Shown here in pieces: positions 35,601 through 38,600 of a DNA stretch of 64,000 nucleotides. The stretch is from Sweltsa coloradensis. Its lineage: Eukaryota; Arthropoda; Insecta; Plecoptera; Chloroperlidae. The DNA is taken from NCBI GenBank assembly GCA_024449915.1, contig JAMZAV010000009.1:992001-1056000 (forward strand), given 5' to 3'. Positions within the stretch are counted from its first letter, which is position 1, and each line of letters opens with the position of its first letter. Made by a program: the position numbers and the translations under genes. The notes beneath the pieces were generated by a model. The model made no database searches. It was not told the origin of the DNA and saw only the letters and a program-made list of their open reading frames with translations.

Positions 35601-38600
35601 AATGAAATTAGAAAAATGGTTCGTGTCGATGAAAACGCCTACCAAGCTGGTCAACATTTTGCAAAGACGTACCCTCAGAGCATGGATCGATTAATTGAGC
35701 TTGAGCAGGATACAAAAGCAGGGGAAAATGTTTCTTTGAGTGGTAATTTTGCAAGCTCTAAAATAGAATGTTCAGAAGTCAACAGCACAGCTTCCAACGA
35801 GACCATAGAACAACCGGCTACTGAAACGGTAATAAGTGGCAGTGACACAACTGAAAACATAACTAAGAATGTTACAGAAATGTCAGATTTGACAACAAGT
35901 ACTTTCAGCAAGTCAACATCCAAAGAGAGTCCGGTTCGAAAAAGTGGATTTTTTTCGTTCGGAACGAGGGGCGAGAAAACGAACAGTCTTGTATCACACT
36001 TCAACAAATCTAAATCGAGACTTCTGAATCCTGGAGAGTCGAAGTCTAGCCACGTTGCCGAGGCGAAGTTGCGAGAGCGGGAGGCGATCCAGTTCATGCG
36101 GGGTATCATGGACGAGTGCACGCACCTCCGCAACTTTGAAGTGCCCGTCGACACGTCCCTCATTATCGCGGTCTGCGCGAGAGACGATGCGTACGTACCG
36201 AGAGAGGGGTGCACGGGGCTCACGGACATCTGGCCGGGGGCAGAAGTAAGATATCTAGATTCCGGACACATTAGTGCGTTCATATTGCACCAAAAAATAT
36301 TCAGGTGAGTTGCAAAATAGCAGGAATAATAATAATCTTAAATTCTCAGTTCCTACTATGTCGGGTTGAGTGGTGGTTTTTTGCAAGATATATATTTTAT
36401 TGCTTTGTGTAAAAGGCATTACAAATGCTGGTGGATGCTAGTGCGTTCATATTGCACCAAAAAATATTCAGTATGATTGGAGAAGGGTTGACAGGTTGGG
36501 AAAGCATAGAGAACATAAACCCAGCCTGAAGGGCTGGGGTCGACAAAACTTTTCACCTGCTGATGACAACTGCAGCTAATTTAAAGTTGTTTGGTTACCT
36601 AATCCAAGACGCGTTTCGTCCTTCTGGACTCATCAGGCGGATGGTTGCCACTAAAAATCAGCATACTACATGCAACAAACTAACACATAACCAACCATGA
36701 TGATGAGACAACATGCATGCAGAATTTACTTCTTGCGTGGCCCTACCACAGGTTTGGTTATGTGTTGTGAGTTTTGTTTGCATGTAGTTAGCTGATTTTT
36801 AGTGGCCACCATCCGCCTGATGAGTCCCAGAAGGACGAAACGCGTCGTGGATTTAGGTAACAAACAACTTTAAATTAGCTGCAGTTGTCATCAGCAGGTG
36901 AAAAGTTTTGTCGCCCCCAGCCCTTCAGGCTGGGTTTTATGTTCTCTATGCTTTCCCAACCTGTCAACCCTTCTCCAATCATACTAAACTAGCCGATTGG
37001 CCTTTTCCTAATTGTAACAAACCAGTCTTTTGACACCTCTTTCACTTTCTATCTTTCTTCCATTTGGGGTCGAGATGGGCGAGCCTACTCTACACCCTCT
37101 GGTGGGTCCGTGTTTCCTTGTTCCTCACAAGTGTGACTCCTTGTCCTGCTGGGGGGGCCTAGCAGGTGATGAACCTGTTAGACCCTACTCGTCTTTTCCT
37201 TCAACCTCTTCATCTGCAGCCAAGAGCTAGTATAGCACGTGTGCCTGTGCTATAGCCAAGAGCTTGCAATTTGTAGTATTGTTTCCTTTCGTTTTCGAAT
37301 CCCAGTCACAATTAGTAGGGCAGCCTCTCTCGTTGCCACGGGTCTTGGTTCAAATCCAGGGTAAGACATGGTTCTTTTGTCGCCCAAGCACCAGAGTCTA
37401 GGAGGGAAGCCCCCTCACTGGTTGTGCTGTGTTGTGACTTTCCACCCTTCCTATCTCTAACCTTTTCTCTTAGAATGAATGAAGAGGCACCCTTGCCCAG
37501 CAACAGCAGGAGGGGCAGCTTTTCTCTTGTTGCCAAGGGTCCTGGTTCGAATCCAGAGTAAGTCATGGATTTCTTGTCTCCCGAGCACCAGAGTTGGGAG
37601 GGAAGCCCCCTTACTGTCTGTGCTGACTGTGTGCCCCAGTATGAATGGTGTGTGAAGTAACCTTGCTGATGATGACAACATGCATGCAGAATTTACTTCT
37701 TGCGTGGCCCTACCACAGGTTTGGTTATGTGTTGTGAGTTTTGTTTGCATGTAGCTAGCTGATTTTTAGTGGCCACCATCCGCCTGATGAGTCCCAGAAG
37801 GACGAAACGCGTCGTGGATTAAGGTAACAAACAACTTTAAATTAGCTGCAGTTGTCATCAGCAGGTGAAAAGTTTTGTCGCCCCCAGCCCTTCAGGCTGG
37901 GTTTTATGTTCTCTTTGCTTTCCCAACCTGTCAACCCTTCTCCAATCATACTACTCATACCAAAAAATATTCAGGTGAGTTGCAAGATAGCACTTCTAAT
38001 AATAATCTTAAATTCTCAGTTCCTATTATGACGGGTTGAGTGGTGGTTTTTTGCAAGATATATATTTTATCGCTTTTTGTAAAAGGCATTACAAATGCTG
38101 GTGGGTGCATAAAATACCAGAGTGATCCACTATACTGGTTGGCCATAATTCACTCGTCGATTACGTCAGCATTGGAAAGGTTACATACTTCAGATCTACT
38201 TTTGGGCATGTAGGCTAAGTGTTCAAACTAAAAAAAGTGACAAGCTAAGCTTCCGATGTATTTTGTCCCTCCTGTATGTTGTTGATTTAGTACATGCATA
38301 CTTGTTCATACCTTGATGATTTCTTATATGTAACTAAAAGTAAAATGTATAATTTTTGTTTGGCAATCGTAATGAAAATCGAAGCAAATGTTGTTCATAC
38401 CTATTTGGGTTGGGTTCCAACAGAAATGTAAAATATTGTTTGGTACACTGACTATTCTAGGTGAGGTAACCTAATTGTGACCAACTTGTATTATTTTTCT
38501 TTCTCTTAATTAATGACAAACTGTATTAAATTTCAGATCGGCCATTGCAGAATCGTTTGAAAAAATGCGGAAGAAATATCCACCACAATCCGGATCATAG
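26601..38600 (+). CDS. ABHD18: ABHD18-like alpha/beta hydrolase, complete in 6 exons
   Basis: Exons: 26601-26692, 29997-30264, 31804-31916, 35207-35345, 35442-36304, 38537-38600. All junctions are GT/AG with matching phases and give 512 residues. The start [14 protein letters not shown] and [11 protein letters not shown] match the N-terminus of animal ABHD18 (DUF2048 family). Exon 2 ends LHLAGTGDH, exon 3 has [12 protein letters not shown] and [13 protein letters not shown], and exon 4 has the nucleophile elbow GMSMGGH (Ser200). Exon 5 ends with CARDDAYVP (acid about Asp452/453) and SGHISAF (His480), completing a Ser-Asp-His triad. Exon 6 ends in KKYPPQSGS. Residues about 295-390 are Ser/Thr-rich, low-complexity and longer than I expect for vertebrate homologues. 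The mammalian protein has recently been linked to mitochondrial cardiolipin deacylation; for this copy that is inference. Introns are full of mobile elements. Confidence 0.93.
26965..27203. mobile_element. hAT-like MITE, copy 1 (intron 1 of the ABHD18-like gene)
   Basis: The terminal inverted repeat reads GGTACTTCTTTGGTTGG on the left and its near complement on the right, continuing to GGACCGGTTTT. It is flanked by TAAAGGCC (26957-26964 and 27204-27211), an 8-base target duplication. It has no ORF. A second copy lies about 35 bases downstream in opposite orientation. Confidence 0.8.
27239..27472. mobile_element. hAT-like MITE, copy 2, inverted relative to copy 1
   Basis: This carries the same termini and body as 26965-27203 in reverse orientation and is flanked by ATAATCTG (27231-27238 and 27473-27480). 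Different target duplications show that two independent insertions occurred, not an inversion of one. Confidence 0.8.
28187..28270 (-). mobile_element. Helitron-like 3' tip H
   Basis: CTAGGAAAACGCCAAAGTCG followed by TTGTTGCACAAGTGAGTGAG, the same tip as 34420 and 47397. The distal end could not be placed. Confidence 0.4.
29148..29697. mobile_element. 550-bp MITE with perfect 8-bp duplication
   Basis: The ends are GGTACTTGTTCATTAACGGG and its complement, flanked by CTATAAAT at 29140-29147 and 29698-29705. Inside lies a second palindrome (AACGTCGCTATTTTAAA and complement, 29367-29440). The outermost GGTACTT matches the tip of the two hAT-like MITEs at 27 kb. Confidence 0.85.
30265..31803 (+). 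other. Intron 2 of the ABHD18-like gene
   Basis: No mobile element was resolved. Several TAGGCCTA palindromes occur. Open frames near 30561-30941 and 31599-31901 resemble no family; the latter runs into exon 3 only because it shares its frame. Confidence 0.5.
32301..33024 (-). mobile_element. Helitron-like non-autonomous element
   Basis: On the - strand it starts TTGGATGAGCG and ends with hairpin AACGC/GCGTT and TTTTCCTAG. The flanks are A and T. The 5' end is repeated inverted close to the 3' end, giving an asymmetric subterminal inverted repeat. It shares its interior with 56260-57019. It lies in intron 3 of the ABHD18-like gene. No Rep/helicase coding is present. Confidence 0.65.
33155..33323. 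mobile_element. Small MITE
   Basis: Inverted ends CATTAGACGGTAGGCAATGG (left) and the complement of CCATTGAACCGTCTAATG (right), with an inner CAAGTTTCCTTGAA pair. No clear target duplication was resolved. Confidence 0.6.
33397..34017 (+). mobile_element. 3' fragment of a non-LTR retrotransposon with RNase H
   Basis: The frame 33397-33666 encodes an RNase H C-terminal half: DSKAAIEAI (active-site Asp region), [14 protein letters not shown] (His and final Asp). A single TAA (33667-33669) interrupts it. The frame continues to 33987 with [16 protein letters not shown] and a Cys/His cluster CRLCNDG...HLHVC. An (AAC)n tail follows. It is 5'-truncated and inactive, in intron 3 of the ABHD18-like gene. 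The clade is one carrying RNase H (I, R1 or LOA-like). Confidence 0.8.
34040..34125 (-). repeat. LINE/SINE 3'-tail repeat
   Basis: (ATTT)n, then AACGTCTATCCTATTCAG, TTATAAAAACTGATTT and ACAAAGGAGGACAA. The same end is at 11700-11765 (+), 8970-9030 (-) and partly 39600-39650 (+). Confidence 0.6.
34420..34995 (-). mobile_element. Helitron-like element with tRNA-like segment (copy J, truncated)
   Basis: Begins with the 3' tip CTAGGAAAACGCCAAAGTCG (complement), has a second shortened tip near 34474-34482, then a tRNA-like stretch TAGTCTAGTTGGC...CCTGGTTCAAAC. A body shared with 44317-45169 and 47397-48736 follows. The 5' end of the family is missing here. Confidence 0.6.
36602..36642 (-). ncRNA. 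Type I hammerhead ribozyme, copy 1
   Basis: On the - strand: stem I strand ATCCGC, core CTGATGA, stem II GTCC/GGAC with loop AGAA, core GAAA, minimal palindromic stem III ACGCGT, then the cleavage triplet GTC and the return strand TTGGAT. One stem I pair is lost relative to the other copies. Predicted cleavage lies between 36608 and 36607. Confidence 0.8.
36811..36852 (+). ncRNA. Type I hammerhead ribozyme, copy 2
   Basis: Stem I is ATCCGC (36811-36816) with GTGGAT (36847-36852). Core CTGATGA is 36817-36823, stem II GTCC/GGAC with loop CAGAA, GAAA 36837-36840, palindromic ACGCGT as a one- or two-pair stem III, and GTC ending at 36846 (predicted cleavage after it). All invariant core bases are present. 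Very short stem III hammerheads are known to work best as dimers. Confidence 0.88.
37310..37610. repeat. Two SINE-like units in the retrozyme-like body
   Basis: Two related units (about 37310-37420 and 37500-37610) share GTTGCCA.GGGTC.TGGTTC, AATCCAG, and GAGCACCAGAGT or CAAGCACCAGAGT with GGAGGGAAGCCCCC. The GGTTCGAATCC motif resembles a pol III box B. Confidence 0.45.
37778..37819 (+). ncRNA. Type I hammerhead ribozyme, copy 3
   Basis: Identical in core and stems to the copy at 36811-36852 and in the same orientation, 967 bases downstream. Predicted cleavage is after 37813. Cleavage at copies 2 and 3 would release a unit of about 967 nt. Confidence 0.88.
37959..38108 (+). repeat. Duplicate of the exon 5 tail and intron 5 start
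   Basis: Repeats 36290-36437 closely, including the last 16 bases of exon 5 and a second GTGAGT donor at 37975. It has no acceptor of its own, so it is probably not an exon. Confidence 0.8.

Follow-up and report, generated by a model that had tools for sequence, protein, structure and literature searches.

A non-coding element with Penelope-like ends and hammerhead motifs in an ABHD18 intron of Sweltsa coloradensis

The element and its surroundings

We analysed a stretch of 64,000 nt from Sweltsa coloradensis (the window; assembly GCA_024449915.1, contig JAMZAV010000009.1, positions 992,001 to 1,056,000), in which the last intron of the gene ABHD18 (36305..38536, + strand; donor after 36304, acceptor before 38537) contains an element at 36470..37952 (+). 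It is composed of an inverted pseudo-long terminal repeat (pLTR) arm, a direct pLTR, a body and a second direct pLTR and very probably belongs, as judged from sequence comparison, to a non-autonomous family of Penelope-like elements (PLEs) that is young and present in many copies. The original prediction had placed three hammerhead ribozymes within a retrozyme-like composite at 36439..37958. There is indeed an element, but its span had to be trimmed on both sides, i.e., 36439-36469 is host sequence and 37953-37958 is filler.

With regard to its parts, the inverted pLTR (36470..36694, - strand) is 5'-truncated and covers pLTR positions 62-293, direct pLTR 1 (36693..36985, +) comprises 293 nt, and direct pLTR 2 occupies 37660..37952 (+). 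Between the direct copies lies a non-coding body of 674 nt (36986..37659, +) that is common to most scored copies and whose first ~36 nt form an optional tail. All three pLTR copies have a common end base (CCAATCATACT). The direct copies are 99% identical over 280 nt and spaced by 967 nt, i.e., by one unit of 293-nt pLTR plus 674-nt body. Their predicted hammerhead cut sites are likewise 967 nt apart, in agreement with the released unit of about 967 nt that had been proposed. The element is flanked by a 14-bp target-site duplication, ACCAAAAAATATTC, located on the left at 36456..36469 and on the right at 37959..37972, 3' of the 6 filler bases; the following AG is common to both sides too. Two direct pLTRs, one inverted pLTR and a short target duplication make up the Penelope-like layout that had also been anticipated.

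Coding potential was assessed for stop-to-stop frames of at least 30 aa that overlap the element stretch. Ten of the 27 such frames were submitted to Pfam, and none gave a match, i.e., no reverse transcriptase or other enzyme is called, which is in line with the claim of a body lacking reverse transcriptase. A protein search with a second body/pLTR frame returned no candidate. Within the body, a direct repeat of ~113 nt (37318..37625, +; copies at 37318-37429 and 37513-37625, 83%) carries the tRNA T-arm-like word GGTTCRAATCC. A tRNA origin of the body is unsupported, i.e., no tRNA was detected despite this word; the repeat is possibly a relic of a short interspersed element or a box B of RNA polymerase III.

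Splicing from 36304 to 38537 preserves the frame, and the resulting C-terminus aligns with ABHD18 relatives, such that the proposed location in a host-gene intron holds. Among the best 120 of 700 relatives, the named ones are insects and ~41-52% identical where the full query is covered. A tandem duplication with a 167-nt unit (36272..36471, +; unit 36272-36438, copy two from 36439 and resuming at 37959-38108, 93%) spans the splice donor, and the element is inserted in its second copy. The donor-like CAG/GTGAGT is present twice through this duplication (36304/36305 and 37974/37975). The host duplicates differ at 10/150 sites compared to 3/280 for the direct pLTRs (p 0.002), which makes the duplication probably older than the element. 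We therefore rejected a ~150-nt target duplication made by the insertion, also given that the window has similar duplications at other places: two-copy tandem duplications whose units measure 145-311 bp are found at 1218-1805, 3236-3586, 8452-8800 and 32503-32841, as if the source genome often made them. Further afield, the window contains a reverse transcriptase resembling long interspersed nuclear elements (LINEs) in two frames (21099-23134, +; RVT_1 in the first) and, downstream of ABHD18, an open reading frame (50574-51356, +) that by eye resembles the N-terminus of LARP1. LARP1B and ABHD18 are presumably neighbours in vertebrates too.

Copies, arms and tails across the genome

We searched 1,448,894,888 bases of the genome in 16,871 contigs with the 280-nt pLTR. 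This yielded at least 42 scored matches from 1,365 first-look candidates; three are the window's own, the others are nearly all 99% identical, and all genome match counts are lower bounds. The module is thus multicopy, and the original prediction survives in this respect. For a closer look, 35 genome places (L-numbered loci, two of them extended) were examined together with the window at a minimum of 90% identity, which resulted in 38 scored insertions. Clusters below 250 nt were dropped (L013 227-306, L021 5660-5728, L022 5361-5465, L025 5913-5934, L035 3201-3343).

In 32/38 insertions (hand count), the pLTR is preceded on its 5' side by over 46 nt of this body at 90% identity or above, the six others being L013, L017, L023, L025 (body at 88%), L027 and L041. 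Since the same body recurs in most insertions, sequence comparison indicates that the element is an established non-coding element rather than a single capture. Host DNA captured only once between a pair of pLTRs, as known for the NRPS gene in Adineta vaga, would agree with the missing Pfam matches of the tested body frames and is contradicted for the window copy by the recurring body and by a 98% identical translated piece on a JGI contig of 1119 bases. We consider such a capture highly improbable here, while it may describe how the family originated. Locus L025 additionally harbours diverged (~70-89%) pLTR/body relatives with decayed hammerheads (5798-9121), putatively an older subfamily.

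The insertions vary in structure. Two arms are present in 18/38 and one arm in 20/38, the 5' ends vary along the unit, and tandem units of ~967 nt are found in L011, L018, L020 and L026. Outer ends that are inverted repeats next to a target duplication would also fit a foldback element or DNA transposon bearing long terminal inverted repeats. Such an origin is extremely improbable given the 5'-truncated and one-armed copies, the tandem units and the differing inner arm ends. The preferred assignment to PLEs rests on several traits, i.e., direct pLTRs with an optional head-to-head inverted pLTR (the window and the two-armed insertions), an optional 3' tail of 30-40 nt (23/38), AT-rich targets with short duplications (16/38) and a hammerhead within the pLTR. 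It is the pLTR layout, the tail and the AT-rich duplications, not the hammerhead alone, that place the element with PLEs. A telomerase-like reverse transcriptase with GIY-YIG endonuclease is not encoded in the ten tested frames, which makes the element a non-autonomous relative instead of an autonomous PLE. Two traits of metazoan non-LTR retrozymes are missing, namely a canonical type I hammerhead with stable stem III and a tandem unit of 170-400 nt.

We defined a tail as an insertion end located 24-42 nt past the pLTR. Tailed ends occur in 15/18 two-armed and 8/20 one-armed insertions. All 15 tailed two-armed insertions have exactly one tailed end; none has two, and three have none (L014, L029 and the window). 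Given the tail frequency of 15/36 ends, a mixed state would be expected in a fraction of 0.486, which the observed 15/18 exceeds (p 0.003). For 13 of the 15 mixed insertions, the tail is on the longer arm (p 0.007), and the untailed arm ends at pLTR positions 281-293 in 13/15 (L010 ends at 161 and L044 at 257). Target duplications are found for 14/18 two-armed and 2/20 one-armed insertions (p 4e-5), while a chance control with flanks paired between different loci, which also applies to the window's duplication, gave 4/1260. In the two-armed copies, the 14 duplications measure 7-14 bp, with an A+T content of 75.5% compared to 61% in the window.

What we suggest to be new are the single tailed end of most two-armed insertions, its association with the longer arm, and the association of duplications with two arms. 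Taken together, the pattern suggests an ordered priming of both target strands, which is the simplest reading of the anatomy in a small and chosen sample.

Alternatively, the inverted arm could result from fold-back self-priming of the first cDNA instead of second-strand priming, as proposed for the A. vaga Penelope (PMC3846280; here and below, statements on published work refer to the accessible parts of the texts). Head-to-head arms are expected from both, and a short GGTT/AACC match at the window junction (by eye) would provide a fold-back site. Arm-to-arm distances were scored as ranks, since a comparison with all inter-locus pairs is biased by locus choice, and the two arms of an insertion tend to resemble one another more than they resemble other copies (mean fractional rank 0.25, 13 pairs); the own partner is in the closer half for 11/13 pairs and among the closest (rank below 0.05) for only 2/13. 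Fold-back copying should furthermore run onward into tail or flank, while the untailed arms mostly stop at the pLTR end. Finally, in the window, the inverted arm differs from direct copy 1 by more events than direct copy 2 does (12 vs. 3, hand count, p 0.017). We thus hold fold-back to be possible but doubtful.

Hammerhead motifs and a possible route of insertion

Both direct pLTRs contain a hammerhead that matches the type I model RF00163 of Rfam (41.2 bits, E 4.7e-7 each; gathering cut-off 34 bits). Hammerhead 1 (36811..36852, +) has its predicted cut between 36846 and 36847, and hammerhead 2 (37778..37819, +) between 37813 and 37814. The motif in the inverted arm (36602..36642, -) reaches 32.6 bits, has a C-U at the stem I pair beside the cut and a loop II that is one base shorter. 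That is, two of the three proposed ribozymes are above the Rfam threshold, while the inverted copy is weaker than claimed. With a simple descriptor, these three hammerheads and no others were found in the 64 kb, compared to 1 match in 100 random windows from a first-order Markov model (base-to-base transition frequencies kept). Scans of viral_contigs and genome_contigs with hammerhead patterns gave 0 matches. Two further Rfam hits, MIR2599 over the palindrome (33.6 vs. cut-off 120) and mir-2755 (22.6 vs. 76), are far below their cut-offs and were taken as chance.

Stem III is reduced to the palindrome ACGCGU without a loop, such that a single molecule can close at most one A-U pair. Accordingly, a single hammerhead fold is predicted at -4.0 kcal/mol compared to -10.7 kcal/mol for the best fold of the motif, while the double hammerhead is the energy minimum of two strands (-27.5 kcal/mol). 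Given these predictions, efficient cutting would be expected only if two hammerheads pair up, i.e., those of two units in the same transcript. In the window copy, pairing with the inverted arm is predicted for hammerhead 1, as is misfolding in a transcript beginning at pLTR 1; therefore, cutting may be poor in this copy.

This bears on a retrozyme route, in which hammerheads of a tandem transcript would excise a 967-nt RNA that is circularised by the host tRNA ligase and becomes the template of insertion. The spacing of the two direct hammerheads and the tandem units at four loci would fit, as does the conservation of the motif: among 55 pLTR copies (at least 90% identity), the window's 42-nt hammerhead is unchanged in 38 and the core words are intact in 50. 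However, variation in hammerhead sites is about that of the remaining pLTR (0.89% vs. 1.11%), i.e., no selection on the hammerhead is visible in the compared copies, as expected for young copies decaying freely. In favour of a circle, no listed pLTR piece begins 5 nt or less from the cut site, apart from a 24-nt scrap of the diverged L025 copy, as a circle would predict. Linear hammerhead-cut RNA is thus not what usually serves as template; both circles and uncut tandem RNA could do so, and uncut tandem RNA accounts for the same data. Additional points against the route are the predicted pairing of hammerhead 1 with the inverted arm, the canonical hammerheads and 170-400 nt circles of metazoan retrozymes (PMC7229834), and the Poseidon element PAc of Anolis, for which in vitro insertion is independent of hammerhead cleavage, i.e., uncut RNA is inserted, and cutting requires protein (PMC11167929). 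We regard the retrozyme route as quite unlikely.

For the preferred assignment to PLEs, an enzyme would have to come from elsewhere. A separate young PLE is inserted head to head at L009 427-2993, 1.2 kb from a copy of the hammerhead family. The two arms show 98-100% complementarity and terminate in (AAT)n. RVT_1 is matched by one frame (1231-1767; 3.9e-15), and another in the inverted arm (920-1345) shows a weak GIY-YIG match (20.9 bits, below the cut-off of 22.6); both are PLE-like by eye. The L011 frame 7687-8085 (+) resembles by eye a PLE GIY-YIG endonuclease, with no Pfam family above cut-off. Other reverse transcriptase frames (L009 8579-9334, L012, L028) match RVT_1 and are LINE-like by eye. 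PLE enzymes thus exist, or existed until recently, in the source genome, but no link between them and the family's pLTR ends was found.

Based on the anatomy, insertion could proceed as follows. A PLE reverse transcriptase with GIY-YIG endonuclease, encoded elsewhere, would copy the element in trans and cut both strands of AT-rich DNA. Reverse transcription would have two internal start points in the RNA: the earlier one at the tail site, ~36 nt from the start of the body, and the later one, which uses the other target strand, at the end of the pLTR. Both cDNAs would be extended through body and pLTR up to a stop, with the tail-primed first strand growing longest, and the two arms would join head to head, leaving a target duplication of 7-14 bp. 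If both primings succeed, a clean duplication would result; with only one, the other end would be lost or badly joined. Tandem units would derive from reading multi-unit or circular RNA. An extended version, i.e., a Penelope-borne retrozyme, would have hammerhead pairs free 967-nt units that are ligated to circles and copied by the PLE enzyme, the tail-site strand first and the pLTR-end strand second. We rate this version as unlikely; if true, the genome itself would record which target strand was primed first.

Several observations weigh against priming in this order by a PLE enzyme. The loci are the best matches to one full pLTR and thus a non-random, biased sample. Two insertions have the tail on the shorter arm, namely L038 718-2009 (329 vs. 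950 nt) and L044 806-2794 (989 vs. 1002 nt, i.e., nearly equal arms), and the window's element has no tail on either arm. For PAc, start sites in vitro are the same for both target strands (PMC11167929). The closeness of own arms and the arm identity of the L009 PLE are compatible with self-copying. No enzyme gene was found in the tested frames of the element itself; neither the L009 PLE nor the L011 frame shares convincing DNA with the family's pLTR or body, and no Rfam hammerhead was found beside either at E 0.01.

Comparison with known elements

The layout itself is not new. Typical Penelope elements combine a pair of direct pLTRs with a shorter inverted one and a 9-bp duplication, and one of the inverted pLTRs may carry a 31-bp tail; non-PLE cargo between pLTRs is moved in trans (PMC3846280). 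The idea of a combined form of two architectures, as put forward by the original prediction, is thus to be dropped. Dimer-type minimal hammerheads in PLE pLTRs are known as well. For butterflies, 'Nonautonomous Penelope elements' have been mentioned (PMC6685494), while searches of the openly licensed PMC literature, as judged from titles, abstract starts and passages, gave no description of such elements with hammerheads.

Instead of a new architecture, the family offers a set of young insertions and, possibly, a rule that ties the tail to the longer arm. Its units are short, its ends intact and its copies many and young, such that the insertions may show how such elements insert, and they bear on second-strand and inverted-arm formation of PLEs as well as a possible movement of retrozymes by PLEs. 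If this rule is upheld by a larger sample, puzzling structural variation becomes an order of events that is testable in vitro.

Among PLEs, Pen2a and Pen3a-NRPS of A. vaga (PMC3846280) are similar in their two direct pLTRs plus a shorter inverted one, the optional 31-bp tail, short duplications (8-10 bp in their case) and PLE-unrelated cargo between the pLTRs. Here, in contrast, there is no PLE open reading frame, one conserved non-coding body is found in many copies, and a hammerhead is present, a word absent from the accessible text of that paper. With PAc (PMC11167929), the family has in common tandem pLTR units, a hammerhead upstream of two adjacent tail-defining start sites and AT-rich targets. 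In PLE insertion as described there, the tail lies between two RNA start sites of reverse transcription, and both target strands are cut and extended at AT-rich targets. Different from our element, PAc encodes its own enzyme, and its start sites are ~85-92 nt past the cut (from the published coordinates) compared to ends at ~139 and 175 nt here.

With regard to the ribozymes, minimal PLE hammerheads without stem III may cut as dimers (PMC7761336, PMC6155905). Those of type I (Cervera and de la Pena 2014; Lunse 2017, via PMC7761336) also have a palindromic stem III and tandem copies, while here the motif is within an element without an enzyme gene. Metazoan non-LTR retrozymes (PMC7229834) are likewise non-autonomous and non-coding with tandem units and type I hammerheads; their units have ~170-400 nt instead of 967 nt, and the minimal hammerhead as well as the pLTR and inverted arms set our element apart. 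Plant LTR retrozymes (PMC4918200) resemble it in hammerheads within the terminal repeats of a non-coding unit below 1 kb, but these are type III hammerheads, and the duplications are 4 bp long (as given in PMC7229834). With hammerheads and PLE ends united on a unit that is entirely non-coding, the family extends the overlap between PLEs and retrozymes.

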